Positions 4,871 through 27,128 of a stretch of 29,537 nt of DNA are shown one piece after another. The stretch covers positions 1 to 29,537 of the forward strand of contig RZYX01000017.1 of assembly GCA_009930155.1 (NCBI GenBank), in the 5' to 3' direction. Positions within the stretch are counted from its first letter, which is position 1, and every line of letters starts with the position of its first letter. Under the pieces are notes generated by a model. It did no database searches, was not told where the DNA came from, and saw only the letters and a program-made list of their open reading frames with translations. The DNA comes from Clostridia bacterium. Its GTDB lineage: Bacteria; Bacillota_A; Clostridia; Oscillospirales; Acutalibacteraceae. A program made the position numbers and the translations under genes.

Positions 4871-4916
4871 GATAAAAATCCCTCTATTTTAAAATTAAAA
4901 TAGAGGGATTTTTATC
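4871..4916. terminator. Bidirectional intrinsic terminator
   Basis: A perfect inverted repeat: the left arm runs from 4871 and its exact complement ends at 4916. The GC-rich core CCCTCTA/TAGAGGG is flanked by A and T runs on both sides, so it can end transcription of the secA-cyclase cluster on plus and of the DUF2809 gene on minus. Confidence 0.85.
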
Positions 4917-5006
4917 AAAACAAACACCAGATTTATCTTTTAATATATATAACTATAGTTCAAAATATATAGTAACCGTTCATATCCAACACTATGTATT
5001 TACACA

Positions 5007-5384
5007 TTACGTTCTTACTCTACTTTGTATTATCTTTTCCCATATTATTAAAACAACTGTTGCAATTAGATAACAACAAATATCTTTTATATCAAACGAG
5101 GATCCGATAATAATTGATATTACTTTATTATCTTGCAAATGCAAAACATTTACAATGTTATAATATTGAACCAACTCAACAGCTGATGCAAAAGCGAATA
5201 AGTATAGCGGCAAAAACCCTATGGGCTTTTTTACAAATGCTTTGATAAATGTATACATTAGAATAACCACCAAGATATCTCCTACGTATGGTCTAATTAA
5301 AGTATCATGTACAAAAACAGCAATGATCACCTCTGTTATAAACAACACTAAAAAAGCAACTAAGTATTTTAGATTTATTTTCAT
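5007..5384 (-). CDS. DUF2809 family small integral membrane protein
   Basis: A 125-aa protein with four hydrophobic helices. The pattern of an acidic residue in helix 1 (TEV), the RPYVGD motif (residues about 32-37), VEL/QYY in the middle and the GSSFDIKDICCY motif near the end is characteristic of the DUF2809 family, whose function is not established. The start has GGGAGT eight bases before the ATG. It is the last gene of a minus-strand stretch, about 220 bases from the next gene upstream, so it probably has its own promoter. It converges on the cyclase gene pair and shares their terminator. Family assignment is from remembered motif patterns. Confidence 0.8.
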   Translation of the reverse strand: MKINLKYLVAFLVLFITEVIIAVFVHDTLIRPYVGDILVVILMYTFIKAFVKKPIGFLPLYLFAFASAVELVQYYNIVNVLHLQDNKVISIIIGSSFDIKDICCYLIATVVLIIWEKIIQSRVRT

Positions 5385-5562
5385 AAATTATACTCCCAAA
5401 CTTATTAAAGCTATTCATTTTTCATTACTAACCCCATCGTCAACACGGCAATTGCTTTTATCATAATTTCACTAACTTACAAAACGACTATTTATAAGCT
5501 CGTATTTAATCTAAATCATTTTTATATCCTCAACAAAATAGGTGTTTATAGGTTAATATCAA

Positions 5563-5594
5563 TAATAAAGGGCCGAATATAAATTCGACCCTTC
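5563..5594 (-). terminator. Intrinsic terminator of the acidic anchored protein gene
   Basis: Arms 5568-5578 and 5583-5593 pair over 11 bp. One pair is a G-U wobble only in the minus-strand RNA and a mismatch in the plus-strand RNA, which supports minus orientation. It lies 15 bases past the stop at 5609 and is followed on minus by TTTATTATT. Confidence 0.65.
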
Positions 5595-5608
5595 ATTTGC
5601 GTTTATAT

Positions 5609-6913
5609 TTATCTTGTAAAAAACTCACTAAGCTCTGGCTTATCTGTAATAAATGTTTTACCAAATGTTAATGCGCCAACCTTTTCATGTTCAGGTGGAA
5701 GCATAACTTTACCACTTTTTGTGATTGAAAAAACATTGTCAAGTGTGTTTTCATTTTTAATTCTGTTATTAGAGAATTCAAATACAAGCCCTGCTCCATC
5801 CTGCGACATTATAGACACGAGTCTGTCCCTTTGAGCACCTTTAAATTGCGACACAACCATATCAATTGCCTTATTGTAAGGTTCATCAGAAACAATACTA
5901 GTACCAACAATCTTTGTTTTCCCACACTCTGCAGCCTTCAAAAAGACTGGCTCCTCAGGCTCCTCTGTTGAAGAATTTATGTTTTCTTGTTCTACTCCTA
6001 TTTGAGGTTCTATCTGTGACAAAACTGGTTCTGGTGGAAGTTGATCTTCTTCATTATCTAAAGATCGTCCGCTAACTATTACTGGAGTTTTCTCAAATAC
6101 CTCTATTTCTTCATCAGGAGGTATAGCAACAACAGGTTCATCCGTTATAGGGCTTGTAACTGTTACAGAATCTTCTAAATTCAATATATCCTTCTCAATA
6201 AGTGACATATCAAGAAACGGGTTCAAACTCTCTTCCTGTTTTTCTGAAATCGTTTCTTGGATTTTGTCAGGCTCAATCTCTGCAATTGGATTAATAATTA
6301 TCTCTGGCTCTTGCTTTACATGTTGCTTCATGTCGATTGAATTATTAACCTGTGCATCTTCATTGCCATCAAGACTTTCGAGCTTTCCTGCAATATAAGG
6401 TAAACCAAAGGTCATTTCCATTTCTGGTTTAGGTTCTTCCGCCAGTGGTTTTGTCTCAATTATTGGCAAATCATTTGATATTGGAAGATGATTTATGCTC
6501 TGTGATTCAAATTCATTTATATCCATCATTACCGGCTCAACTGATGTTACTTCAATTGGAGTTGGCTCAATCGGTGCTATATCTATATTGTTTGATTCCA
6601 CCATGGATTCTTCTATCGATATAAAATCATTTGAATTAACAGCATTATTTACAACAGATGCAACATCATCAAGATTAATCGTTGGCAATATATCTTCTGG
6701 TGGTTGATTAACTTGCTCTCTAACAACCTGATCTCGACCAAAATTGGGTACTGTTCCGTCCTTTACAGGTTTACGAAGTGTTGTAGGCTCCGAACCAATC
6801 ACTCCCTTTACAAGAGTTTTAAGTGACTTGTCAGCAAGCAACAAAGAGCCGGCTGCCGTTGCTACTGTGGCTACTGCCAATGCACCCAATTTTAATATCC
6901 TACTGTCTCCCAT
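5609..6913 (-). CDS. Acidic proline-rich anchored protein of unknown function
   Basis: A 434-aa protein I do not recognise. I chose the ATG at 6913 because AGGAGG lies nine bases upstream; a longer frame to 6976 lacks a ribosome binding site. Residues about 8-27 form one hydrophobic alanine-rich segment (a signal anchor or uncleaved signal). Residues about 40-330 are low complexity: rich in Glu, Asp, Pro, Ile and Val, with recurring E-P-x-I/V and I-E-P spacing, and probably disordered. The last 100 residues look globular, with one Cys (AAECGKTKI), a helical segment (NKAIDMVVSQFKGAQRDRL) and a basic end. Single gene with its own terminator. The layout suggests an extended stalk holding a folded head at the membrane, but topology cannot be fixed from sequence alone. 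Confidence 0.8.
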   Translation of the reverse strand: MGDSRILKLGALAVATVATAAGSLLLADKSLKTLVKGVIGSEPTTLRKPVKDGTVPNFGRDQVVREQVNQPPEDILPTINLDDVASVVNNAVNSNDFISIEESMVESNNIDIAPIEPTPIEVTSVEPVMMDINEFESQSINHLPISNDLPIIETKPLAEEPKPEMEMTFGLPYIAGKLESLDGNEDAQVNNSIDMKQHVKQEPEIIINPIAEIEPDKIQETISEKQEESLNPFLDMSLIEKDILNLEDSVTVTSPITDEPVVAIPPDEEIEVFEKTPVIVSGRSLDNEEDQLPPEPVLSQIEPQIGVEQENINSSTEEPEEPVFLKAAECGKTKIVGTSIVSDEPYNKAIDMVVSQFKGAQRDRLVSIMSQDGAGLVFEFSNNRIKNENTLDNVFSITKSGKVMLPPEHEKVGALTFGKTFITDKPELSEFFTR

Positions 6914-6960
6914 TATATTGAAACCTCCTAATAAAACTTTTATATTATCGTTCAAAATAC

Positions 6961-6989
6961 AATATTTATTATGCACTGTTTCATGTCAA
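6961..6989 (-). promoter_or_regulatory. Possible sigma-70-type promoter for the acidic anchored protein
   Basis: On minus, a consensus -35 TTGACA (complement of 6984-6989) is followed after 17 bases by AATATT (6961-6966), a poor -10. It lies about 50 bases upstream of the start at 6913. Confidence 0.35.
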
Positions 6990-7031
6990 CTATTGCTAAT
7001 ATAATTTTATATAGATAATTGATTGGAGTGA

Positions 7032-8009
7032 TTAATTAAATGATTTGTTATGCAAAGTCTGAAAATTTTCATCTTTTGACATCGCTAAAAATCTTGCCTG
7101 AGCAGTCTCATAAGATTCACGTTTAGATGCATCAGGCTCATTTTCCTCTTGCATAGCTTGCCATTTTTGTTCTGCCGATTTTTTAGCTGCAAGGTATTCT
7201 GCTGAACCACTTTCCATTGTGAAAAAGCTAAAGTAATTAACCTCGTCTATAAAAATTTGAACTTGCATAAGAGTAGTGTCGTTCCATGTACTGGTGTTTG
7301 CAAACTGAAATACATATCTATAAGTGTTGCCAGTAATCGCAACATATACCAAATGACCGTCAGCCATTGCTATTCCACTCTTTGCATAATCTGATTTTAT
7401 CTTTGCGACATATGTATTATTTGACATGCTAGAAAGCAAAGTTTCACTATCATTTTGATTTGTAAATTTAAGGCTACTTCCAACAAAACCAGGTGTTACT
7501 ACTTTTGTAGTAGTCGTCGTAGTATTTTGCGATTTAGTTGTGGTCTTTGAATTTTGGGTTGTAGTTGGCATAACAGCTATTATTTTGTAATAATATTTTT
7601 TACCACTTTCTGCACTTTTATCAGTATAGGTTGTTGTTGTTACTGTACTAAGTTCTTTATAATCACCATCTTGGCTTGTCGCTCTGTAAATATTGTAGCT
7701 TGTTGCTCCCAAAACAGATTCCCAAGAAACTTTAATACTTCCATCCTTTGCAACTGAAGTTGTATCAACCGTTGCTATACTTTTTCCCTCTGCCTTTTGA
7801 GGGGTTGTATTGCCATCAATATCAGCTTCTACTTTTTGGGTTGGATCAATAAGACCTTGCTGACCGTCTTCATTTGTTATAGTGTCGCCAAACTGGCCAT
7901 ATTCTGCACAATCTCCAAAATCAAGAGTTGGAGAACTCTCTTCCTTAGAGCAAGCTGCAAACATTAAAATAAAAGCAATAAACAATGATATTAATGCCTG
8001 TTTTTTCAT
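7032..8009 (-). CDS. Secreted lipoprotein with a fibronectin type III domain
   Basis: A 325-aa protein with a lipoprotein signal peptide: MKK, a hydrophobic stretch and lipobox MFAAC, giving lipidated Cys20. After a short acidic linker, residues about 80-150 form a fibronectin type III domain (IKVSWESVLGATSYNIYRA, later GKKYYYKIIAV), the kind used as a spacer or binding module in Firmicutes surface proteins. A Thr/Ser/Gln-rich linker (TTTTKSQNTTTTTTK, about 155-172) leads to a C-terminal domain of about 150 residues that I do not recognise; it has several Tyr/Trp/Phe and ends in a charged helix. The start has GGAGG ten bases upstream. Probably monocistronic. It should sit on the outer face of the membrane; the ligand is unknown. 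Confidence 0.88.
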   Translation of the reverse strand: MKKQALISLFIAFILMFAACSKEESSPTLDFGDCAEYGQFGDTITNEDGQQGLIDPTQKVEADIDGNTTPQKAEGKSIATVDTTSVAKDGSIKVSWESVLGATSYNIYRATSQDGDYKELSTVTTTTYTDKSAESGKKYYYKIIAVMPTTTQNSKTTTKSQNTTTTTTKVVTPGFVGSSLKFTNQNDSETLLSSMSNNTYVAKIKSDYAKSGIAMADGHLVYVAITGNTYRYVFQFANTSTWNDTTLMQVQIFIDEVNYFSFFTMESGSAEYLAAKKSAEQKWQAMQEENEPDASKRESYETAQARFLAMSKDENFQTLHNKSFN

Positions 8010-8871: not shown

Positions 8872-8967
8872 TGTCATATAATAATTATTATATCTATATA
8901 TTATGGTCTATCGAGTCAAGTTTAACACTTCGTGTGATAGATTGTAATTTTGAAAGGAATCTTTAAA

Positions 8968-10470
8968 ATGTCTATTGATGCCCGTTCTTCTGGTATGCTT
9001 ATGCATGTCTCCTCATTACCTGGGCCTTTTGGTGTTGGTGTTCTTGGGAGAGAAGCATTAGACTTTGTTGATTTTATATCTCAGCTTGGATTTTCCTCGT
9101 GGCAAATTGTGCCCCTCAATCCTATTAATAATTGTCAATCTCCATACAAAATCTCAAGTGCATTCGCCGGTAACTATGTTTTTATAGACCCTCGTTCGCT
9201 CAAAACTCTTGGTCTTGTATCACAAGAAGAAGTGGATACTTGTATTTACGCAAAAAGCGAAACAGCCTACAACTACGATTTTGCCGCAGAGAAAATGCTT
9301 GCACTCTTAAAAGTCGCTTTCTCTCGCATTAGTAATACAATGCTGACAAGTATTGATGACTTTTCGTCTAAACATAAATGGATTGAACCTTATTCACTTT
9401 ATATGGCAATTAGAGAAAGTCAGGGAGGTGCTCCATGGTGGGAATGGACGTCAGGTTATGATGACTATGAATATTGCAAGCTACAATATAATAAATTCAC
9501 TTCTCAAATAAACTTTTGGAAATTTACCCAGTATATATTTTATTCCCAATGGTCGGTTATTAAAAACTACGCTAATATCAAAGGCATAAAAATAATCGAA
9601 GATATGCCTTTTCATGTGTCTATGGACAGTGCCGATGTTTGGAGCAATTCATATTACTTTCGGTTTGATATTAATGACCTTAAATCATCAAATGTTTCTA
9701 GCGATACTGATAACTCTTTTTTAGCTAACGATCAAGCTTGTTCTAATCCACTTTATAATTGGGACAATTTAGAGGATGAAGGATTTTCTTGGTGGATTTC
9801 TAGGCTAAAATTTTTAAACAACAACTTTGACATTATAAAGATTACTAATTTTAAGTCCTTTGAATCTTATTTATCTATCCCACCAGACGAAAAAATCACT
9901 GAAAGAGAAAAATGGGTTCAAGTTTCTGGTCAAAACTTTTTTAAAGCAATAAAAAATTCTTTGTCAGACATAAATTTAATTGCAAATGACCTTGGTAATA
10001 TTGAAGATGATGTAATAGAACTTTTAAATAACAATAATATATACGGTGTATGTGCTATGCAATTAGGATTTGAGTACGCCTCTAAAAACGACCATTTACC
10101 TCACAACTATACCAAAAATACAATTGCCTATCTTGGTACACATGATAACAAAACATTTATTGATTTTCTGCATGAGCTTGCAACAGATAAGCGAGAGTTC
10201 ACACTGAATTACTGCGGATTTCGTGGAGAAGATTGGGCCACACCCAAATATGATAATATTGCATGCCGTTGTGCTTTTGAGGCTTTGTGGCGTTCTCCTG
10301 CAACTTTAACCATTATAAATATTAAAGACATTTGTGGCATGACAAGTTCTGATAGCAAAGACCTTGCGGGCAAACAACAAAACAATTGGTATTTTAGGGT
10401 TGCAAGTGATTATTTACACAATATTGACGGCGACTATTTCAAACGCATAAACGAAATATTCAAACGATAA
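8968..10470 (+). CDS. GH77 4-alpha-glucanotransferase-like protein lacking catalytic residues
   Basis: A full-length (500 aa) member of the GH77/MalQ family, which transfers glucan chains in glycogen and maltodextrin metabolism. Family landmarks are clear: SPYKISSAFAGN, ADVWSNSYYFRFD, NPLYNWD, LPHNYTKNT, GTHDN and NNWYFRV. However the nucleophile motif, RIDHF in active enzymes, reads KITNF here (Asp to Thr293), and the acid/base motif AEDLG reads ANDLG (Glu to Asn340). Only the third carboxylate, Asp393 in THDN, remains, and the usual substrate-loop motif before NPLYNW (PPDxFSxxGQ) is replaced by FLANDQACS. The frame is otherwise intact, so this looks like a maintained pseudoenzyme, perhaps a glucan-binding or regulatory protein, rather than decay. 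The start is the ATG after AAAGGA; a TTG at 8950 is less likely. Confidence 0.9.
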   Translation: MSIDARSSGMLMHVSSLPGPFGVGVLGREALDFVDFISQLGFSSWQIVPLNPINNCQSPYKISSAFAGNYVFIDPRSLKTLGLVSQEEVDTCIYAKSETAYNYDFAAEKMLALLKVAFSRISNTMLTSIDDFSSKHKWIEPYSLYMAIRESQGGAPWWEWTSGYDDYEYCKLQYNKFTSQINFWKFTQYIFYSQWSVIKNYANIKGIKIIEDMPFHVSMDSADVWSNSYYFRFDINDLKSSNVSSDTDNSFLANDQACSNPLYNWDNLEDEGFSWWISRLKFLNNNFDIIKITNFKSFESYLSIPPDEKITEREKWVQVSGQNFFKAIKNSLSDINLIANDLGNIEDDVIELLNNNNIYGVCAMQLGFEYASKNDHLPHNYTKNTIAYLGTHDNKTFIDFLHELATDKREFTLNYCGFRGEDWATPKYDNIACRCAFEALWRSPATLTIINIKDICGMTSSDSKDLAGKQQNNWYFRVASDYLHNIDGDYFKRINEIFKR

Positions 10471-10492: not shown

Positions 10493-10540
10493 AAAAAGAG
10501 AAAACCCTACAGTTTAACACTGTTGGGTTTTCTCTTTTTT
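10493..10540. terminator. Bidirectional intrinsic terminator between convergent genes
   Basis: Stem AGAGAAAACCC-T-ACAGT with ACTGT-T-GGGTTTTCTCT, a single T-T mismatch, a five-base loop, A run before and T run after. It closes the GH77 gene on plus and can close the third cyclase gene on minus. Confidence 0.9.
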
Positions 10541-10581: not shown

Positions 10582-12171
10582 TCATTGATAGTTTCTGATG
10601 CAGAATTTATATTGATCCTTACCATTACGCTTTGCTTCATACAACGCTTTATCAGCATTCTTATAAAGCTCATCATAAGTTGCTCCGTCCTTATTAAACA
10701 TTGATATACCCATACTCGTTGAAAGCTTATGGCTATAATTATGGTCTATGCCATATTTTTTATATGATGCAGATAACCTTTGAACCTTGTCACAAACCAA
10801 TGCAACGGACTGGACATTCTTAATGAATGCCACAAACTCGTCGCCTCCAATTCTACCCAAAATATCACTCTCACGGAAATAACTTTTAAGTTCATTAGAA
10901 AGCTCTAACAAAACATCGTCACCTACGAAATGCCCATGTGTATCATTTATAGACTTAAATTCATCCATATCTATAATAATAAAGGCATGAGAACCATCTG
11001 ATCCTTCACCTGCTATATACTCTTCAATAAGAAATTTAGTCGTCGTTTTATTATAAAGCTTTGTAAGCGGGTCCATCTGTGCTGCTGTTTTAAGCTTAAC
11101 TTCACTAGTCTTTCTATTATCAATGTCCTGAAGTAACTGCATAAGCCTAAATTCATCTTTGTTTTCTGTGTATTCTCGTATCATTAATGTTGATGTCCAC
11201 GCATATTCCCCGTTTGACCTCCGCCTGCGTGCTTCTTGATATATCTGCTTTTTGCCCTCTCTAAACTCATTTTTAATATTGTCTATAGAAAACTTTTGAG
11301 TATACTGTTCTACATCATCAGGATGCAGAAGCGTTTCCGTTATATGTTCCATGCTTTTTTCGTAACTATCTCTCATATGAGATGACTGAAAAGTGCCCTT
11401 GTTACGAACAAGAATAAACTCATTTTTATTAAGATTGACCTCATAGACTTCATCAAAAAGGTCTTCCAGTATACCTTGCATTCGTTTTTCAACAACATAT
11501 CCCCGTTGCTCAATTTTACTCTGAGCCAACAATACTTTCATCCTGCCAATATATGTTGTCTGAAACAATAGCCCTGAAATGAGCAAAAAAGGAATAGCAA
11601 TTAATGAAATCCTAATTATGCAAGTACCTATAATTACTGCTGTCAATATTACAAATATTTCAGATATTATGAGTATAAATGCCGTTTCATTTTTATCAAA
11701 CACAGGTGCTACTAATGCAAGAGTCAAAAATACAAACCATGATTCAATATGCCCATACAAAGAATATTGCAAAACAGCTACAAGACATATAGAAAACTCA
11801 AATATGCCCCAAAAAGACATATAAACCCATTTACTTTTTTTAATATTAACAGTTGATTTGTTCATAATATTTGCAATAAACACTAAATAAACAATTGACA
11901 AAACCACTAGAAAAACAAATAAGCAAATATATAATATGCCCTGAGTTGATTTTATGCTGTATTGGTTAACCTTTAAAAAGAAAGCATAAGTTGAGAACAC
12001 AAATATCAGCAGCATTGCTGGCACCATTCTTTTAAGGTTTGCTCTAGCTCTTGCATCCTCAGCATAAATAAAAGCTTTGTAATCCTCTGAATCTTTAGAG
12101 GATTTGGACATAGTTCTTATCTTTTTTATCTGCCCAAACAGGTTTACATATTCTCTCCATATGTTCTCCAC
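10582..12171 (-). CDS. Membrane diguanylate cyclase with PAS-like domain (GGDEF)
   Basis: A 529-aa sensor-type cyclase. After a short charged N-terminus come about six hydrophobic helices (roughly residues 50-215), then a PAS-like segment (about 230-360; DEVYEVNLNKNEFILV and a later RRRRSNGEYAWTSTLMI that resembles the PAS/PAC strand pair), then a GGDEF domain with GGDEF at 442-446 and an RESD I-site. It should synthesise cyclic di-GMP in response to a membrane or cytosolic cue. I chose GTG at 12171 because GAGGTGAT precedes it by a normal spacing; a frame to 12219 runs through that site. This is the third cyclase gene in 10 kb, but its domain plan differs from the tandem pair, so it is not a recent copy. 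Confidence 0.93.
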   Translation of the reverse strand: MENIWREYVNLFGQIKKIRTMSKSSKDSEDYKAFIYAEDARARANLKRMVPAMLLIFVFSTYAFFLKVNQYSIKSTQGILYICLFVFLVVLSIVYLVFIANIMNKSTVNIKKSKWVYMSFWGIFEFSICLVAVLQYSLYGHIESWFVFLTLALVAPVFDKNETAFILIISEIFVILTAVIIGTCIIRISLIAIPFLLISGLLFQTTYIGRMKVLLAQSKIEQRGYVVEKRMQGILEDLFDEVYEVNLNKNEFILVRNKGTFQSSHMRDSYEKSMEHITETLLHPDDVEQYTQKFSIDNIKNEFREGKKQIYQEARRRRSNGEYAWTSTLMIREYTENKDEFRLMQLLQDIDNRKTSEVKLKTAAQMDPLTKLYNKTTTKFLIEEYIAGEGSDGSHAFIIIDMDEFKSINDTHGHFVGDDVLLELSNELKSYFRESDILGRIGGDEFVAFIKNVQSVALVCDKVQRLSASYKKYGIDHNYSHKLSTSMGISMFNKDGATYDELYKNADKALYEAKRNGKDQYKFCIRNYQ

Positions 12172-12302
12172 CCATATCACCTCTTTCGCAAATAAAATCT
12201 TTAAACCGCAACAAATCATATATATATAAACTTAATGATTTGCAAAAATAAAGCTTCATAATAAAAACTGTATATATTAAGAAATAAAATATAAAAAGCA
12301 CT

Positions 12303-12715: not shown

Positions 12716-13030
12716 TCAACCTATTTTCCTACCGTTCTTAATCATTATCTTACCAAAAAATGGTGCATTAATATGTCCGTTACATGTATCACCGTCAAAA
12801 CTTGCAACAACCTCTACTTCCTTGCCTGGAAGCATATCAGATCCACCTTTAACTGTTAGTGTATTACCTTTTTCAGCTATATGACTTATAAAGTAGCTTG
12901 GTATTTTGTTTACCCCTGGAATCTCAACATTAAATCCATATTTACCATTTTTGTCTATAATCTCAAGGACTGCATTTCCCTTAAAGAAAATCGTATTTAC
13001 TGAAAACTGCCATTTTCCTACGCCAATCAT
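12716..13030 (-). CDS. 104-residue protein of unknown function, downstream of nadE
   Basis: A 104-aa protein with a clear ribosome binding site (GGAGG eight bases before the ATG). It has no signal peptide and no membrane segment. Alternating hydrophobic residues and many Gly (GKWQFSVNTIFF, VLEIIDKNGKYGF, NTLTVKGG, VEVVASFDGDTCNGHI) suggest a small all-beta fold, such as a barrel. There is one Cys and a basic end. It starts 59 bases past the nadE stop on the same strand, so the two are probably co-transcribed, but nothing links it to NAD metabolism by sequence. I do not recognise the family. Confidence 0.8.
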   Translation of the reverse strand: MIGVGKWQFSVNTIFFKGNAVLEIIDKNGKYGFNVEIPGVNKIPSYFISHIAEKGNTLTVKGGSDMLPGKEVEVVASFDGDTCNGHINAPFFGKIMIKNGRKIG

Positions 13031-13089: not shown

Positions 13090-15006
13090 TTATAGCCGCC
13101 AAATATCTGCACTAGCATCAGATGGCATTCTAAAATCACCTCTTGGAGAAAGGCTAACACTACCAACCTTTGGTCCATCTGGCAAGCAAGAACGCTTAAA
13201 TTGGCTCTGAAAAAATCTTTTTAAAAATAACGAAAGCCATTTTTCTATTTCATCATGAGAATATTTGCCTTCAAAAGCTAGCTGTGCTAAGAACTTTAGT
13301 TTTTGTGGCTGTGTACCAAATCGCATAAAATGATACAAGAAAAAATCATGCAACTCATATGGCCCAATTTGCTCCTCTGTCTTCTGCTGTATTGCTCCGT
13401 GCTCATCAGGCGGCAAAAGTTCTGGGCTTACTGGCGTATCAAAAATCTTTAAAAGCACAGTTGCTGTTCTCTCATCTGAATTATCTGCAACATTTTTAAC
13501 CAAATGACGCACCAATGTTTTTGGAACACCTGCATTAACACCATACATACTCATATGGTCACCATTATATGTGCACCAACCCATTGCAAGTTCACTCAAA
13601 TCGCCTGTTCCAACAAGCAATGCACCCTCTTTATTTGCAAGGTCCATAAGGATTTGCGTTCTTTCTCTTGCCTGAGTATTTTCATAAGTTATATCATGAA
13701 TATTTATATCATGACCTATATCTTTCATATGCTGAATGCAAGCAGGACGAATGTCAATCTCTCTCTTTTCTGCTCCAATAGAATATATTAATTCCATTGC
13801 ATTTGTGTATGTCTCGTCTGTTGTTCCAAACCCAGGCATTGTAATACAAAGTATATTTTGCATTGGAAGCCCAAGCTTTTTCATTGCCTTTACTGTTACA
13901 AGCAGAGCAAGGGTTGAATCAAGCCCACCAGATATTCCTATAATTGCCTTTTTTGCACCTACATGTTTCATTCTTTTTGCAAGGCCTGAAGCCTGAATAG
14001 ACAAAATTTCCTTGCAACGCTCATTTCTATCTATAGCATCGCTAGGAACAAAAGGATATGCATTTATCTTTCTATCTATGGCTTTTTCATTAAGTGGTGA
14101 AAGGCTACATTCAACAATACTGTACTTGCCAAAAATTCCGCCACAATCATCTGCATTGTCTGCAAACACATTCCTCTTAATTCTCTCCGAATTAAGATTT
14201 TCAAAATCTATACAAGCAATAGCACTGTTCGCATCGTTTTTAAATCGTTCACTATCTGCAAGTATTACTCCGTTCTCTGCAACTATACAAGCGTCTGAAA
14301 ACACAAGGTCTGTTGTTGACTCGCCTGTAGCTCCGCTTGCAAAAACATATCCACAATATCCTCTTGCACTCTGTTGCTTTATAAGTTCTCTCCTATAATC
14401 ATGCTTTGTTACCAGCTCATTACTTGCCGAAACATTTAAAATGATATTGGCGCCCTCCAAAGCCATAACAGAACTTGGAGAAATAGGCACCCATAAGTCC
14501 TCACAAACCTCTATCCCAACTATTACGCTATCACTCATCTTAAATAAAAGTCTGCCAAACGGAACATTATCTGCACCAAATTTAACGCTATCAATCCTTG
14601 CATCTCTACCAGATACAAACCAGCGTTTTTCATAAAACTCACCATATGTTGGAATATATCTCTTTGGTACAAAACCTAAAAGTTTACCTTTTTGCATTAC
14701 TACCGCAACATTATAAAGACGATTGTCCGCACGTAGCGGCATGCCAATTACAATTAGTGCTGATATATCTTGTGTATTCTCAAGTATTTGCACAAGAGCC
14801 TTTTCACATTCATCATTTAGTATGCTCTGAGAAAATAAGTCAGCACAAGTATAGCCAGACAAAAATAGTTCTGGCAAAGCTATTATCTGTGCTTGTTGCT
14901 CCGCCGCTTTATATATCTCCTCAAGTGCCGACTTTGCATTCTTTTTAGGGTTTGCAACCTCAACAACAGGGCTGAGCGCTGCAACTTTTACAAAATCCAT
15001 ATTCAT
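13090..15006 (-). CDS. nadE: Glutamine-dependent NAD+ synthetase
   Basis: NadE performs the last step of NAD synthesis: ATP-dependent amidation of nicotinic acid adenine dinucleotide, with ammonia taken from glutamine. The 638-aa protein has both expected domains. The N-terminal nitrilase-type glutaminase (about 1-290) carries the Glu46 (LPELFLSG), Lys115 (PKRYIPTYGEFYE) and Cys168 (GIEVCEDLW) triad. The C-terminal synthetase has the P-loop SGGLDS at 359-364, GTGDLSELAMGW and KVGSVSLSPRGDFRMP near the end. The length is normal for the clostridial type. I use the ATG at 15006, seven bases after AGAGG; a second ATG follows two codons later. A near-consensus promoter lies upstream, and a possible structured RNA further upstream could also read into the gene. 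Confidence 0.97.
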   Translation of the reverse strand: MNMDFVKVAALSPVVEVANPKKNAKSALEEIYKAAEQQAQIIALPELFLSGYTCADLFSQSILNDECEKALVQILENTQDISALIVIGMPLRADNRLYNVAVVMQKGKLLGFVPKRYIPTYGEFYEKRWFVSGRDARIDSVKFGADNVPFGRLLFKMSDSVIVGIEVCEDLWVPISPSSVMALEGANIILNVSASNELVTKHDYRRELIKQQSARGYCGYVFASGATGESTTDLVFSDACIVAENGVILADSERFKNDANSAIACIDFENLNSERIKRNVFADNADDCGGIFGKYSIVECSLSPLNEKAIDRKINAYPFVPSDAIDRNERCKEILSIQASGLAKRMKHVGAKKAIIGISGGLDSTLALLVTVKAMKKLGLPMQNILCITMPGFGTTDETYTNAMELIYSIGAEKREIDIRPACIQHMKDIGHDINIHDITYENTQARERTQILMDLANKEGALLVGTGDLSELAMGWCTYNGDHMSMYGVNAGVPKTLVRHLVKNVADNSDERTATVLLKIFDTPVSPELLPPDEHGAIQQKTEEQIGPYELHDFFLYHFMRFGTQPQKLKFLAQLAFEGKYSHDEIEKWLSLFLKRFFQSQFKRSCLPDGPKVGSVSLSPRGDFRMPSDASADIWRL

Positions 15007-15057
15007 ATAAAAACCTCTCAAAAAAGTTAATCTATAACATTGTTCCGATATATTTCT

Positions 15058-15086
15058 ATTATATAACAATCATGTCCCTTTTTCAA
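15058..15086 (-). promoter_or_regulatory. Promoter of nadE
   Basis: On minus, TTGAAA (complement of 15081-15086), a 17-base spacer and a perfect TATAAT (15058-15063), about 52 bases upstream of the start. Confidence 0.75.
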
Positions 15087-16166: not shown

Positions 16167-16820
16167 TTAATTTTTTATGAGTTCAATATATTCAAGCACT
16201 ACTTTTTCATCTCTTTGGCTTTTTGGAACATCAAGCACGATATCTTTTTGAACTTTAAATCCATTTGAAGAAAAACACAGCACTCTGTCCGCAAGCCTTG
16301 CCGCATCAACCATATCATGAGTTGTAATAATAACTATTTTGGATTTAGCATACTGTAAAATTAAAGAATACATCTTTTCTTTAAGTTCGGCATCAAGCCC
16401 TTTTAGCGGTTCATCTAAAATTATAACATCACCTTGGGCTGCTAGGCTTCTTGCAAGAGCCACCCGTCTGCACATTCCTCCGCTAAGCTCACTTGGGTAT
16501 TTGTCTGCTTCACTAACGAGCTGCATATTGCCAAGCAATGCCTGCGCTTTTATCTTATCTGAAACAATTTCAATATTTTGCTGTGCTGTAAGCCATGGAA
16601 ACAATCTGTCCTCCTGAAAAGTTACACTTACCTTTTCAGTGCCACTAACACTGCCTATATCTTGATTTTCAAGCCCTGCAATTATTCTAAGTAATGTTGT
16701 TTTTCCTGCTCCAGAAGCAGAGCAAATAAAGGTGATTTGATTGTCATTAAAACTCTCGTTTAAATCATCTATAACAAGGTGGCTACCAAAGCTTTTACTC
16801 AAATTTTCAAGTTTTATCAT
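16167..16820 (-). CDS. ABC transporter ATP-binding protein, NitT/TauT type
   Basis: A 217-aa ATPase of the SsuB/TauB group, which energises import of nitrate, sulfonates, taurine or thiamine-precursor-like compounds. Motifs: P-loop SASGAGKTT (34-42), Q-loop Gln69 (TFQEDRLFPW), signature LSGGM (112-116), Walker B VIILDEP (132-138), D-loop GLDAE and switch His168 (TTHDM). The first glycine of the usual GxSGxGKST loop is Ser34 here; the essential Lys and Thr are present. It is slightly shorter than typical (about 240-260 aa) at the C-terminus. The start is the ATG preceded by GAGGTG, which overlaps the 3' end of the permease gene by 14 bases, indicating translational coupling. Last gene of the four-gene operon. 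Confidence 0.92.
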   Translation of the reverse strand: MIKLENLSKSFGSHLVIDDLNESFNDNQITFICSASGAGKTTLLRIIAGLENQDIGSVSGTEKVSVTFQEDRLFPWLTAQQNIEIVSDKIKAQALLGNMQLVSEADKYPSELSGGMCRRVALARSLAAQGDVIILDEPLKGLDAELKEKMYSLILQYAKSKIVIITTHDMVDAARLADRVLCFSSNGFKVQKDIVLDVPKSQRDEKVVLEYIELIKN

Positions 16821-17598
16821 TTGGCACACCTCGCCTTCCGCCAAGCTTATTTATAAGTGTTACCACTAATTTTTCTATAATCACGCTAAGCGCAACAACA
16901 ACAAGTGTCCACGCAAAAAGGTCTTGCGTTTCTATATATATTTTTGCATTGTAAAGCTGTGTGCCAATTGAAAATGTTGGTACGCTTATTACCTCTGCGG
17001 ATATACCCGCCTTCCATGCAAATCCAAGCCCCGTTGTACATGCACTTAAAAACATTGGAGAAACGCTGGGAACATACACCTTTGTTATCGTCTTTGATTT
17101 TGAAAACCCAAAAACTTTTGCAACCTCCAGCAGACCTTTATCTACACCATTTATACCAGCACTCACATTTGACCAAACTATTGGAAGCACCATTAAAAAA
17201 GAGATAAAAGTTGGAACATTATCCCTGCCAATCCAAACAAGAGCAATTATAATAAATGATGCTACGGGAGTCGCTTTTACAAGGCTCATTACAGGATAAA
17301 ACAAGTCATATAAAAACGATATTTTTGTTGTTAAAACAGCAAGTATAACTCCAAATACAACTGCAAGCAAATACCCCTGCATTATCCTAAAAAGTGACAG
17401 CAATGTAGCGTGCCAAAAATCTTGTTGCTGTACAAGTTCAAAAATGCGTATAACAACTCGTGCAGGAGACACAATAAGTATCTCCTGCTGAACAATCATA
17501 TAAACTACCTGCCACAAGCCAATCCAAAACGCAATGACAAGAAGCTTTTTTAGTGCTGATTTTAATTTTAGATTATGATTGGTAGTAGAAGTTGTCAT
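16807..17598 (-). CDS. ABC transporter permease, NitT/TauT type
   Basis: A 263-aa inner-membrane permease of the binding-protein-dependent transport family (SsuC/TauC/ThiX-like), with about six helices and the cytoplasmic EAA-type loop that docks the ATPase (GINGVDKGLLEVAKVFGFSKSK, with Gly at the expected place). It works with the ATPase encoded next and the lipoprotein encoded before it. The start at 17598 lies inside the 3' end of the binding-protein gene (26-base overlap), and AAAGG is present before it, so translation is coupled. Substrate cannot be told from the sequence. Confidence 0.92.
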   Translation of the reverse strand: MTTSTTNHNLKLKSALKKLLVIAFWIGLWQVVYMIVQQEILIVSPARVVIRIFELVQQQDFWHATLLSLFRIMQGYLLAVVFGVILAVLTTKISFLYDLFYPVMSLVKATPVASFIIIALVWIGRDNVPTFISFLMVLPIVWSNVSAGINGVDKGLLEVAKVFGFSKSKTITKVYVPSVSPMFLSACTTGLGFAWKAGISAEVISVPTFSIGTQLYNAKIYIETQDLFAWTLVVVALSVIIEKLVVTLINKLGGRRGVPNDKT

Positions 17599-18589
17599 CA
17601 GGCAACGCCTTTCCTACTGATTGTGGATTACTGTCAAACAGCATTTGCAAATTTGCCTTTGCTATTTTTTGCATATCTAAGCCCGCAATAAATGTTATAT
17701 TACAGTTTGGAATTGCATTTGTTGCTATTGCTTCACTTGGTAATATCTGCTGTTCTACAATCAATTTTGCAGCATCTGCGGCATTTTTATTTACATATTC
17801 AACTGATGCCTCATACTCATCCATAAAGATCTCTACTGCTGCTTTATTTTTGCTCAAAAAGTCTTTATTAACTATTATACATCCCATTGCAAGTTTGCTT
17901 TCATCGCCATTTACCTTTTCCCATTCAGCTGTAAGGTCAAGAGCTATTCTCATATCTTTATTTTGTGCTTTAACTACTGTAACATTTGGTTCTGGCAACA
18001 TACAAATACTTACACTTCCTGCTGCTGCAAGTGTTGCAAGCTCGCTGTGTTCACTTTTGTACTCTATAGTTACATCTGTGCCAACTTCAAGTCCGTTTTT
18101 CTCCAACAAATAGTTAAGAATATATTCTGGAGTTGAGCCTTTGCCCGTCGCATAAATAGTTTTGCCTTTTAAATCTGCAATGCTATTTATTGTGTTACCG
18201 TTTTCCATTATATATAATACGCCTAATGTGTTTACTGCAAGCAACTTTACATTTTTATCTGTCTTGTTATAAAGAGTTGCTGCAAGGTTTAAAGGACACA
18301 TAGCCATATCTACTTCCCCACTAGACACCATTGAAACAATATCCTCTGGAGCTGCTGTAAGTGTAATATTATAATTGTTTTTTGCGTTGCCTTTATTTGC
18401 GTCATCTGCAAGCTTTGAGATACCCATTCCTGTTGGGCCTTGTAAAGTTGCTATGTTTATTGTAGCTTTCTCTTTTGCTACTGCTGTTGTTGTCTCTTTT
18501 TCCTCTGTTTCACCTGAATTGCATGCTGCAAAAGCAAATATCATTACAAATGCCAACACAATAGATAAAACTCTTTTAAAATTCTGCAT
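17573..18589 (-). CDS. ABC transporter substrate-binding lipoprotein, NMT1/SsuA-like
   Basis: A 338-aa lipoprotein that should bind the substrate outside the cell and hand it to the permease. It has a signal peptide with a lipobox ending at Cys23 (FAFAAC), a short acidic Thr-rich linker, and a two-lobed type II binding fold: INIATLQGPTGMG at the start, GEVDMAMCPLNLA, then IADLKGKTIYATGKGSTPEYILNYLLEKNG in pieces, as in the NitT/TauT binding proteins. The GPTGMG strand and the short gap to YNITL are like proteins annotated for unknown small anions or amines. The ATG is preceded by GGAGAG at normal spacing; a longer frame to 18619 lacks one. Thirteen bases separate it from the upstream regulator gene. 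Confidence 0.92.
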   Translation of the reverse strand: MQNFKRVLSIVLAFVMIFAFAACNSGETEEKETTTAVAKEKATINIATLQGPTGMGISKLADDANKGNAKNNYNITLTAAPEDIVSMVSSGEVDMAMCPLNLAATLYNKTDKNVKLLAVNTLGVLYIMENGNTINSIADLKGKTIYATGKGSTPEYILNYLLEKNGLEVGTDVTIEYKSEHSELATLAAAGSVSICMLPEPNVTVVKAQNKDMRIALDLTAEWEKVNGDESKLAMGCIIVNKDFLSKNKAAVEIFMDEYEASVEYVNKNAADAAKLIVEQQILPSEAIATNAIPNCNITFIAGLDMQKIAKANLQMLFDSNPQSVGKALPDDNFYYQS

Positions 18590-18602
18590 AATTACTCTCC
18601 TT

Positions 18603-19277
18603 TTATTTGGCATATTCATTAAGAATATCCCTATTTAAAATTATTATCTGCTTACCACTGCGTTTTATCGCATCGCTTTGCTCAAGCTCATCCAAAGCAC
18701 GATAAAGTGACGAGCGTCCTATGCCAAGCACTTTTGATAGTGCTGTCATACTAACTGATAGCTTGCCTTCATCCTCACCTTTAAAACATTCTTCTAAATA
18801 CATTGCAAGCTTTCCGCTTGCGTTACAAGCTGTAAATTCATCTATCCTATCGTTCAAAAAATAAATTCTGTCTGAAAGATAGCTAATATAGTTTTGCCAA
18901 ACTGATGGTTCTCTTTTCATAAGTTCTAAAATAGAGTCATAATCAAAAAAAACAACACAGCAAGCTGTTGATGCTGTTATAGTATTTACAAAATTCCTTT
19001 TTCCCGAAAAAAGAGTAACTGCTCCAAAAAGCTCACCCGCTTGAAGTTTGCTTATTATCAAATGATTTTGAGCACCTTTTGACACAGAAGCTTGTCCTTT
19101 TGCAATAATCCCAATGCATCTTTCTTGATTTTGTGGTGAAAAAATTATTTGACCTTTTGAAAAAGACTTTAGCTTAGCCCCTTTTACAAGCTTTGCTATG
19201 TTTTCATCTAAGCAATTACAAAATATTATATTTTGTTTTAAATACTCACAGGCTTTATCTTCATAATTATTTTTCAT
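18603..19277 (-). CDS. Crp/Fnr-family transcriptional regulator
   Basis: A 224-aa regulator with a cyclic-nucleotide-binding-type beta roll (about residues 20-130; LKSFSKGQIIF, IGIIAKGQASVSK, LQAGELFGAVTLFSG), a dimerisation helix and a C-terminal winged helix (LSVSMTALSKVLGIGRSSLYRALDELEQ in part, about 175-205). The phosphate-binding cassette is degenerate, so a nucleotide ligand is doubtful. A CNC pair near residue 23 and a CC pair in the roll could have a redox role but do not match the four-Cys Fnr pattern. The ATG at 19277 is preferred over 19298 because AGGACAG precedes it. As first gene of the transporter operon it probably controls it, through the inverted repeat in its promoter. Confidence 0.92.
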   Translation of the reverse strand: MKNNYEDKACEYLKQNIIFCNCLDENIAKLVKGAKLKSFSKGQIIFSPQNQERCIGIIAKGQASVSKGAQNHLIISKLQAGELFGAVTLFSGKRNFVNTITASTACCVVFFDYDSILELMKREPSVWQNYISYLSDRIYFLNDRIDEFTACNASGKLAMYLEECFKGEDEGKLSVSMTALSKVLGIGRSSLYRALDELEQSDAIKRSGKQIIILNRDILNEYAK

Positions 19278-19306
19278 ATTCTGTCCTATTTGGTACATTT
19301 TTTCTT

Positions 19307-25125: not shown

Positions 25126-25220
25126 AGACAAAATCTTATAACAATATTTTGTCATATTGTAAATTTATAGCATATTCATACCGATATAAATAAAAAGAAG
25201 TATTTTTGCGAGGTGACAAC

Positions 25221-25913
25221 ATGAAAATTAATTTTTCTCCACATTTTTTTAAAACCAATGTGCAAGATTATTCAAAACTTATTTCTCATACGCCGCCTAC
25301 TAGCTCCGATAAAAATCATTTCGACTCAAATTTTGACACAATCGATATAAGCAAAGATTCTGTCCAATCCCCAAATTTTGTTGACCCTGTACAAAGTGAA
25401 GAAGGCGATAAAATCAAAGTCGAACTTCTACATTCAAAACTAAAAAGAGGTGAAGAGCTAAGCTCCTCCGAACTTAATTTTTTAAAGAAAACTTCCCCAG
25501 GGCTATATGAGAAAGCTGTTGAAATAAACCGAGAACGAAAAGAGTATAGACAGCAACTCGAGTCTTGCAAAACCAAGCAAGATGTTGAAAAAATAAAAAA
25601 CCTAAAGATGAATAGATTTGCCAAAGAAATAAAAGCCATTAACAATGCACCTCTTTCTCAATCTGAAAAAGAAGAAAAACTTGAAATGGTTAAAATGCGT
25701 CAAGCTGCAATAGAAAACGAACACAAGCAATTTATAAAAACCAACCATTATAAATCTCTTAAAGAAACAGATGAAGATTCAAATAAAGTTGAACATCCAA
25801 AGAAAACTCACACTTCAAGCAGAGCTGATGATTCAAAGGAAGTTGACGATTTTAAAAAAGCTGATGCCATAAAAGAATCAGACAAAGAAAGTATTTTAAA
25901 TCAAGTAAAATAA
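25221..25913 (+). CDS. Highly charged, mostly helical protein of unknown function
   Basis: A 230-aa protein without signal peptide or membrane segment. The N-terminus (MKINFSPHFF) and a motif DTIDISKDS are followed by a helical charged core, residues about 70-180, containing ELNFLKKTSPGLYEKAVEIN, CKTKQDVEKIKN and LSQSEKEEKLEMVKMRQAAI, then a Lys/Asp/Ser-rich tail that is probably disordered. I recall a family of such proteins in Clostridia, with the conserved order helical core plus SCKTKQDV, but no function. Start ATG 25221, five bases after GAGGTG. It follows the HTH-desulfoferrodoxin gene by 95 bases and may be co-transcribed. Confidence 0.82.
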   Translation: MKINFSPHFFKTNVQDYSKLISHTPPTSSDKNHFDSNFDTIDISKDSVQSPNFVDPVQSEEGDKIKVELLHSKLKRGEELSSSELNFLKKTSPGLYEKAVEINRERKEYRQQLESCKTKQDVEKIKNLKMNRFAKEIKAINNAPLSQSEKEEKLEMVKMRQAAIENEHKQFIKTNHYKSLKETDEDSNKVEHPKKTHTSSRADDSKEVDDFKKADAIKESDKESILNQVK

Positions 25914-26000: not shown

Positions 26001-27128
26001 TTATTGCACCTGTCCTAACATTTTTGAAAAAGCCGTCATATATGTTGCATTGGATGGAGCAAATGTGTAGTTAACAAAAAGCACACTGTCGATTCCATTT
26101 GCACTTACAAAGCTTGCAAGATTCATATCAATCTTCCTTGGGTCGGTTACATAAACCTCTTCATAATTGTCAATCAAAAATGGAGTTAACGCATTACCGT
26201 AGGATTCTTTTATAACAATTATCTTTTTTCCATTTTTATTGTTTGTAGTTATCTTTATAAGAGGGTTATCTCCCTGTATAAATGCAAGATATTTATTGCT
26301 TGCTGAGATACTATTGGCAACGATTGTAAGAGGCATACTTTGGCTCATTGTTGCATCGCTGAATATTATTCCCTCTGCGGGAGTTGCTGGTATAAAAGTT
26401 TCAACATAATCTGGATTATCCATAAGCACCTGTGCTTGTGTGTATCTATACATACTACCTACAAAGCCATCTATTTTACCCATCGTGTATGTGTCAAGCC
26501 CGCTAGGAACAAAGCCCGCAACTTTTGCAAATGCCGTATATGCATAATAGGCTCCTCTTGCTGTCCAGTGATGGTCTGTTCTAAAATATATATATTCATC
26601 TGTATGCATACGAAGTGCTGTGCGAGCATCAATACTCTTTATCTTTGGGTCTAGTGCTTTGTATGCAATGTTTATACCTTCGTTTTGAGAACGATTGCCC
26701 GTGTTATACTTTTCTGGCCCATAAAATTCAATTGCTGTGGGTGCAAGCATAACATAAATCTGTGTGTTTGGCACTGTAACAGAAAATGCATTTATTATTT
26801 CTGAATATCTTTGCAAGCTCTTTGAACTTATTCCATACATCTCCATTGCAGATGAACCTATAAGTACTATCGAACTGCTTGTTGTATACTCCGCTGGACT
26901 TGATATTGGTGGTGGTGCAATCTGAGTTGTTTCCTCTTTACTTGTTGTTCCATTCGGCAAGGCTGTTGTTGATTCCTGTATGCTCGAAACTTTGGTGGTT
27001 TGAAAATCAGGATTTTCATAAACCTTTTCACTAAAAGCCAAAATACAAGCGATAACAATAATTACAGCCACTACAAGAACAATAGCTATTGGAACTTGTT
27101 TTTTTTGCAAACCTTTGGCGCTACCCAT
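26001..27128 (-). CDS. DHHW-family membrane-anchored protein (AlgX/DltD-like fold suspected)
   Basis: A 375-aa protein with one N-terminal membrane anchor (about residues 12-33), a Thr/Ser/Pro/Glu-rich linker and an extracellular domain of about 290 residues. It carries the family motif DHHW in FRTDHHWTARGAYY, an IGSSAMEMYG segment near the start of the domain and VIKESYGNAL at the end, the positions of the catalytic blocks in SGNH/AlgX-type O-acetylation proteins. Such proteins usually act with an MBOAT acyltransferase on exported polysaccharide, but no MBOAT gene is present in this window. Start ATG with GGTAGG upstream. It lies 36 bases after the metallophosphatase gene on the same strand, so the two form an operon. 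Confidence 0.85.
   Translation of the reverse strand: MGSAKGLQKKQVPIAIVLVVAVIIVIACILAFSEKVYENPDFQTTKVSSIQESTTALPNGTTSKEETTQIAPPPISSPAEYTTSSSIVLIGSSAMEMYGISSKSLQRYSEIINAFSVTVPNTQIYVMLAPTAIEFYGPEKYNTGNRSQNEGINIAYKALDPKIKSIDARTALRMHTDEYIYFRTDHHWTARGAYYAYTAFAKVAGFVPSGLDTYTMGKIDGFVGSMYRYTQAQVLMDNPDYVETFIPATPAEGIIFSDATMSQSMPLTIVANSISASNKYLAFIQGDNPLIKITTNNKNGKKIIVIKESYGNALTPFLIDNYEEVYVTDPRKIDMNLASFVSANGIDSVLFVNYTFAPSNATYMTAFSKMLGQVQ

Follow-up and report, generated by a model that had tools for sequence, protein, structure and literature searches.

The 29,537-nucleotide stretch of DNA analysed here (the window) is contig RZYX01000017.1 of a Clostridia bacterium of the family Acutalibacteraceae. Its SecA is 71% identical to the nearest one among 394 genomes sampled from the order of an Oscillospiraceae metagenome-assembled genome (G001), in line with an origin in the Clostridia. 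The window is AT-rich and contains, on the forward strand at 8968..10470, a gene for a protein with the fold of glycoside hydrolase family 77 (GH77) from which the nucleophile and the acid/base are missing. The frame is open from the ATG to the TAA and encodes 500 amino acids, and the GH77 domain PF02446 spans residues 12-481 (E value 5.8e-110, 368.8 bits). The amylomaltase fold and the whole domain are both present, and the intact frame of the original prediction was borne out. A plausible ribosome-binding site, GAAAGGA (8952..8958, forward strand), precedes the ATG at 8968. The upstream TTG at 8950, which starts the program-listed open reading frame, was set aside; the ATG fits the length (500 amino acids) and the start of three relatives. 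In the following, P0001 is the window protein, P0002-P0004 are its relatives with Thr293, and further P numbers are other listed homologues.

In the alignment with Thermus amylomaltase (1cwy), KITNF of the window protein corresponds to RIDHF, ANDLG to AEDLG, and THDN to THDN. The nucleophile Asp293 is replaced by Thr293 (codon ACT, 9844..9846) and the acid/base Glu340 by Asn340 (codon AAT, 9985..9987), two departures from amylomaltase (EC 2.4.1.25), while the transition-state stabiliser, Asp395 in Thermus, is kept as Asp393 (codon GAT, 10144..10146; Asn in P0002), all on the forward strand. These replacements had been proposed before and are confirmed, as is the gapless alignment on which they rest: across 162/162 triad-complete listed homologues, neither the three catalytic motifs nor the loop preceding NPLYNW needs a gap. 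This loop, for which a loss of the substrate-binding motif had correctly been predicted, reads AGVPPDYFSxDGQLWG in the family majority and SSDTDNSFLANDQACS in the window protein. Beyond the original prediction, R291K, H294N, W258C, W302L and the loss of the 460s-loop motif RMNxPG were found. The motifs of both substrate loops of amylomaltases are thus replaced, namely, that of the former 250s ("gate") loop (residues 243-259; 9694..9744, forward strand), which has an AlphaFold2 predicted local distance difference test score (pLDDT) below 50 at residues 247-258, and that of the former 460s ("gatepost") loop (residues 462-468; 10351..10371, forward strand), where the alignment shows RMNxPG to be gone and the pLDDT is also low. 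Asp212, His392, Asp393 and Tyr60 are retained. An assembly error is an unlikely source of the replacements, because three further protein clusters carry Thr293. The NCBIfam equivalog malQ (TIGR00217) is matched with 227.8 bits at a cut-off of 205.65, and annotation pipelines would therefore label this catalytically incomplete protein a 4-alpha-glucanotransferase.

Two protein searches, represented by the best 120 of 4432 and the best 120 of 7401 matches from capped candidate sets, yielded 166 different homologues including the window protein. The catalytic triad is Asp/Glu/Asp in 162 of them, Thr/Asp/Asp in two (P0003 and P0004), Thr/Asn/Asp in the window protein and Thr/Asn/Asn in P0002; rarer variants may exist among remoter homologues, beyond the best 120 matches of each search. 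At 64 genome loci, some genes being counted twice, the nucleophile is Asp in 64/64, and Glu340 and Asp393 are present in 62/62 where the columns aligned. A scan of genome contigs gave eight loci with 26-34% identity, again with the nucleophile Asp in 8/8 and with Glu340 and Asp393 in 6/6 where the alignment reaches. A tree built from 37 of the 166 homologues unites P0001-P0004 in one clade (support 100/99), which joins the triad-complete P0005-P0009 (all nine together 100/100); the five are only weakly grouped among themselves (87/28), and the tree program flagged P0002 and P0009 for an unusual residue composition. Each of the four Thr293 proteins has 500 residues, without gaps among them. Because they form one clade of equal length with stepwise triad states, the catalytic loss in P0001-P0004 is inherited and graded, and, as is typical of pseudoenzymes, it characterizes a clade, here of four clusters, and not a single sequence. 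In the genetic code, one base change is enough to turn Glu into Asp, and one more to turn Asp into Asn. Judged by their sequences, P0003 and P0004 are a stage at which the nucleophile has been lost and the cleft is largely whole. The near-invariant residues that are replaced alike in both include V246A, L257I, D293T, E340D and F366L, in or beside motifs taken as cleft lining, which suggests that the site was remodelled and not simply neglected.

Whole-length identity between the window protein and P0004 is 58%. In a sample of the order (394 genomes) the best identity was 47% (to P0004) and in a sample of the family (398 genomes) 51% (to P0003), and neither sample contained a full-length member of the Thr293 clade. 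The only member in the family sample, in the genome G402, is truncated where its contig ends and surfaced only in a search of the genus of G402 with a looser cut-off; residues 345-500 of P0004 are encoded, without a difference, by bases 1-472 of the contig, C87, which starts inside the gene, and the first part of the gene was looked for in G402 and not found. In a plasmid collection 21/72,556 records matched, all with less than 60% identity; the best 5 of the 21 have 32.0-36.1% identity, four being annotated malQ and one lacking an annotation. Viral contigs gave no match to the GH77 protein of the window. In GH77 proteins of metagenome-assembled genomes of Bacilli/Erysipelotrichaceae (loci L004-L006) the triad is kept and the surrounding motifs vary (AENLG, a CPADDFA gate, THDNPP).

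Constraint was compared along the clade with site rates estimated from 116 triad-complete proteins of the first search. The weight of these rates in the differences between P0003 and P0004 is 0.75 (0.60-0.85), and it is 0.60, 0.75 and 0.80 for the nearest triad-complete proteins P0005, P0006 and P0008. P0003 and P0004 thus follow the site constraint of GH77 about as their nearest triad-complete neighbours do. Remoter family pairs reach 0.9-1.0, values which are raised by their membership in the rate-estimating set. For P0001 or P0002 compared to P0003 the weight drops to 0.10-0.15, and for P0001 compared to P0002 it is 0 (0-0.20), i.e., the profile is flat. Differences between P0003 and P0004 fall on 22/117 positions in cleft blocks versus 142/383 outside, and in six pairs other than P0001 and P0002, examined with the first mask, the cleft blocks are the slower part. 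Between P0001 and P0002 the cleft is the faster part. With a mask of the positions named in excerpts of PMC7990933 and PMC4705983, which was mapped after the differences had been seen, 13/25 cleft positions differ versus 64/475 elsewhere (p 1.2e-5), and 29/90 versus 48/410 differ when 5 residues on either side are included (p 6.8e-6); at radii of 0, 3, 5 and 8 residues the p values are 1.2e-5, 2.5e-5, 6.8e-6 and 5.7e-4. The differences are also unevenly distributed along the gene (variance of 25-residue segments, permutation p 0.00125). Changes of family-invariant positions in P0001 had appeared to be confined to the cleft with the first mask, which was drawn by looking at the alignment (0/45 outside, 33/69 inside). 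It was superseded by the paper-based mask, which at radius 5 gives 21/44 changed inside versus 12/70 outside (p 6.6e-4), a weaker contrast and the preferred figure.

Two further tests concern the fold. Outside the cleft blocks, 69 positions carry a hydrophobic residue in 95% or more of the 116 proteins, and P0001 and P0002 have 15 distinct changes at them relative to P0003. All 15 stay within the class VILMFWCAY, although 36% would be expected to leave it if these codons mutated neutrally (p 0.0012); at a threshold of 99% there are 8 changes (p 0.028), and with the stricter class VILMFWC 1/15 leaves, a change of Tyr to Phe. The yardsticks for this core test are 3/20 for P0004 and P0003 and 2/16 (one a gap) for P0005 and P0008. 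Neutral simulations, which assumed a base composition, gave a mean of 5.8-6.2 stops for a pair of tips with 77 residue differences, versus 0 in the real genes, and 9.6 stops on one lineage with 133 changes, a number estimated from branch lengths; stop-free runs occurred in 0/300 in each of four settings. The cleft of P0001 and P0002, as read from these comparisons, is released, and their fold is probably still constrained. Given the outcomes of these two tests, we do not accept that the gene is plain junk.

The surroundings of the gene were compared with contig C87 of G402. The genes downstream of the GH77 gene agree in order and strand in both: a GGDEF protein as the convergent neighbour (10582..12219, reverse strand; 66.0% identity to the P0004 locus), a 104-amino-acid protein without Pfam match (12716..13030, reverse strand; 67.0%), a glutamine-dependent NAD synthetase (13090..15069, reverse strand; 64.5%), an ABC ATPase (64.7%), a permease (78.9%), an NMT1-type binding protein (72.3%) and a sigma factor (72.6%). 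Because of this agreement, P0004 is the syntenic orthologue of the window gene. The search for orthologues with the same replacements, suggested by the original prediction, yielded relatives with Thr293 (P0002-P0004), among them the syntenic orthologue P0004, while Asn340 recurs only in P0002, with Asp340 in P0003 and P0004. The shared order also includes a small zinc-finger gene between those for the binding protein and the sigma factor. In this interval G402 has no counterpart of at least 100 amino acids to the Crp-type gene found at 18603-19298 in the window. In both genomes NMT1-type ABC transporter genes lie near the NAD synthetase gene (16167-19298, reverse strand, in the window; 4896-7332 of locus L070 in G402). 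In the intergenic region that separates the GH77 gene from the convergent GGDEF gene, folding predicts a terminator-like hairpin (10493..10539, either strand; -25.9 kcal/mol, z -7.3), although a simple terminator scan listed none in this region. The cyclic-di-GMP setting noted in the original prediction was set aside as an explanation: the GGDEF gene is syntenic, yet convergent with the GH77 gene and behind a strong hairpin.

G402 also contains a second GH77 gene, on contig C78, with an intact frame of 490 amino acids, the motifs RIDHF, AEDLG and THDN, and a Pfam score of 627 bits; a single TGA in the match lies, by its coordinates, upstream of the ATG. This ordinary GH77 gene (locus L071, 2-5001) follows genes for an ABC permease and a MalK-type ATPase and precedes a carbohydrate phosphorylase gene on one strand, a gene set that is a maltodextrin-use cluster. 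A triad-complete paralogue has therefore been seen in the genome of the syntenic orthologue, and the question of a second, active MalQ, raised in the original prediction, is answered positively, as far as the triad shows, for that genome only. A complete GH77 gene is also present in G515, a congener of G402, and in the genus of G289 GH77 was found in 8/8 genomes, the five that were read being triad-complete.

Elsewhere in the window no Rfam family reached its cut-off. Two proteins encoded upstream of the GH77 gene (5609-6976, 455 amino acids, and 7032-8009, 325 amino acids, both on the reverse strand) have no Pfam or NCBIfam match at E 0.001, and the smaller one has, by eye, a lipoprotein-like start. 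A charged protein of 235 amino acids without Pfam match is encoded at 25206-25913, and a DHHW/AlgX-like protein (Pfam DHHW, E 1.8e-54), with a possible role in surface-polymer acetylation, at 26001-27128 (reverse strand).

In retaining transglycosylation an Asp nucleophile forms a glycosyl-enzyme. In the enzyme of Streptococcus agalactiae the glycosyl-enzyme intermediate is located on D295 (PMC7990933). As nucleophile and acid/base are both missing, the window protein should be unable to take this route, and we infer, in agreement with the original prediction, that it is without transferase activity. It seems fairly probable that the window gene is a malQ paralogue that turned into a non-catalytic pseudoenzyme, in which the cleft was kept first and, later and in the window lineage, only the fold. 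In the first stage, common to P0001-P0004, Asp293 would have been replaced by Thr and Glu340 by Asp, with the rest of the cleft largely intact and constrained, and an alpha-glucan would most likely have been held without transfer. In the second stage, which would have followed in the lineage of the window and P0002, position 340 would have become Asn and the sugar-holding loops would have been lost, while the fold would have remained under purifying selection. That the cleft is kept and constrained in P0003 and P0004 suggests that these proteins still hold alpha-glucan. Glucan binding is not likely in the window lineage, because the gate loop, the gatepost loop, W258, H294 and R291 are lost. 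The glucan-binding role of the original prediction is therefore probably wrong for the window protein, with its lost sugar-holding residues and its faster-changing cleft between P0001 and P0002, and fits P0003 and P0004 better. At present the window protein might act by way of the surface of its fold, perhaps partnering or competing with an ordinary GH77 like that of G402, and a surface-based role of this kind is the best remaining guess. A more specific version, which we put forward tentatively, is that the lineage with Thr for the nucleophile, the acid/base cut to Asp and a constrained cleft either senses maltodextrin by binding it uncut or is a nucleophile-free enzyme, and that the window protein is a later descendant that gave up the cleft and re-used the fold as a regulatory or structural partner of ordinary MalQ.

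Decay, which the original prediction had listed only as a condition that would refute it, remains a strong and serious rival. An ordinary GH77 would have taken over, the paralogue would have become useless, and the lineage of the window and P0002 would be on its way to a pseudogene, so far without having acquired a stop or an indel, a course of events that we regard as possible but doubtful. Several observations weigh against a retained fold. The flat site profile between P0001 and P0002 is also expected from early decay, 33/114 family-invariant positions are changed in each of the two proteins, 12 of the changed positions lie outside the paper-based mask at radius 5, and P0002 has lost the third carboxylate as well. 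Evolution is strongly accelerated: from the common node the distance is 0.045 to P0003 versus 0.345 to the window (stem 0.274 plus tip 0.071), about what release from constraint would give. However, P0003 itself is slow (0.113 versus 0.394 for P0004), and part of this contrast therefore belongs to P0003. The C-terminal 156 residues of the GH77 protein, with 46.8% identity, are the least conserved part of the syntenic block (64.5-78.9% for the others), P0001 has lost 2/10 family-conserved Gly and Pro that lie outside the cleft blocks (G399D, G427K), the codon-usage score of the gene is low (0.007; 3/20 other genes are lower), the longest stretch without differences between P0001 and P0002 is of ordinary length (p 0.17), both cleft masks were chosen after the alignment had been seen, and AlphaFold2 is only weakly sensitive to destabilising changes. 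Neither gene has a stop where about 6-10 would be expected neutrally, an argument that is weakened because the way in which the sequences were found favors intact copies. The constant length of P0001-P0004, the 15/15 core changes that stay hydrophobic and the uneven, cleft-concentrated differences also speak against decay. The selection on the fold that the original prediction assumed is thus supported by the core and stop tests and opposed by the acceleration and the flat profile.

The two other alternatives retain an enzymatic activity. At the stage of P0003 and P0004, Asp340 and Asp393 might run another reaction, e.g., an inverting hydrolysis or phosphorolysis without enzymic nucleophile, which would since have been lost in the window. 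The near-invariant replacements shared by both proteins and the constraint on their cleft fit such altered chemistry, but the literature surveyed holds no precedent for it in GH77, and neither Asp340 nor the loops are present in the window protein, so that we consider it improbable. To our knowledge, no Thr is known as a glycosidase nucleophile. That the window protein itself is still an active 4-alpha-glucanotransferase, by means of other carboxylates, is hardly credible: it passes the TIGR00217 cut-off and keeps Asp212, His392, Asp393 and Tyr60, but the nucleophile, the acid/base, R291, H294, W258 and both substrate loops are replaced, and no new carboxylate is seen at the catalytic motifs by sequence, a readout that does not extend to carboxylates near only in space.

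The preferred reading, a malQ paralogue that became a pseudoenzyme, can be compared with several known systems. With the 4-alpha-glucanotransferases of GH77 (amylomaltase or MalQ, DPE1; Thermus 1cwy, Streptococcus agalactiae 6m6t) the window protein shares a full-length sequence match and the fold, and it differs from them in the replaced nucleophile and acid/base and the lost 250s and 460s loops, whereas all three catalytic residues have been reported to be present in all amylomaltases (PMC7990933). The beta-amylases BAM4 and BAM9 of Arabidopsis have substituted catalytic residues and regulate starch breakdown; the flexible loop is missing in BAM9 and not conserved in sequence in BAM4, and starch binding has been reported for BAM4 and was not robustly seen for BAM9 (PMC8774843). 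Like the window lineage, both keep the fold of a glucan enzyme with substituted catalytic residues, and their contrast in binding is a loose parallel to the two stages; unlike it, they belong to the unrelated family GH14 of plants, and genetics is available for them. The isoamylase subunit ISA2 and 4F2hc (GH13 fold) are proteins of the alpha-amylase clan without catalytic residues that act as partners in complexes. They belong to different families, and, in contrast to the window protein, their partners are known. In the GH77 proteins of Borrelia the Arg before the nucleophile is replaced by Lys, and the catalytic triad is kept. They therefore resemble the window protein in R291K and are unlike it in the triad, of which it has lost nucleophile and acid/base. 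The Borrelia proteins are a separate GH77 group (PMC8465469), and a table of archaeal enzymes contains "one inactive isoform", the family of which is unsettled (PMC11046441). No report of a GH77 protein without catalytic residues was found in the literature surveyed, which consisted of excerpts and mostly did not include subscription papers. Glycoside-hydrolase pseudoenzymes are a known kind, and a GH77 version with a surviving intermediate appears to be new.

The annotation of this gene is a trap, since the malQ model credits the organism with an activity that very probably does not come from the window gene. The window protein is less likely to be a working enzyme than a relative that has lost catalysis and been retained for a different function. 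In plants, glucan enzymes without catalytic activity are known to act as regulators. If the reading is true, GH77 would offer a bacterial series, with an intermediate that has lost the nucleophile and kept the cleft and a later state that has lost the cleft and kept the fold, which would allow each step of the conversion of an enzyme into a pseudoenzyme to be tested with natural proteins.
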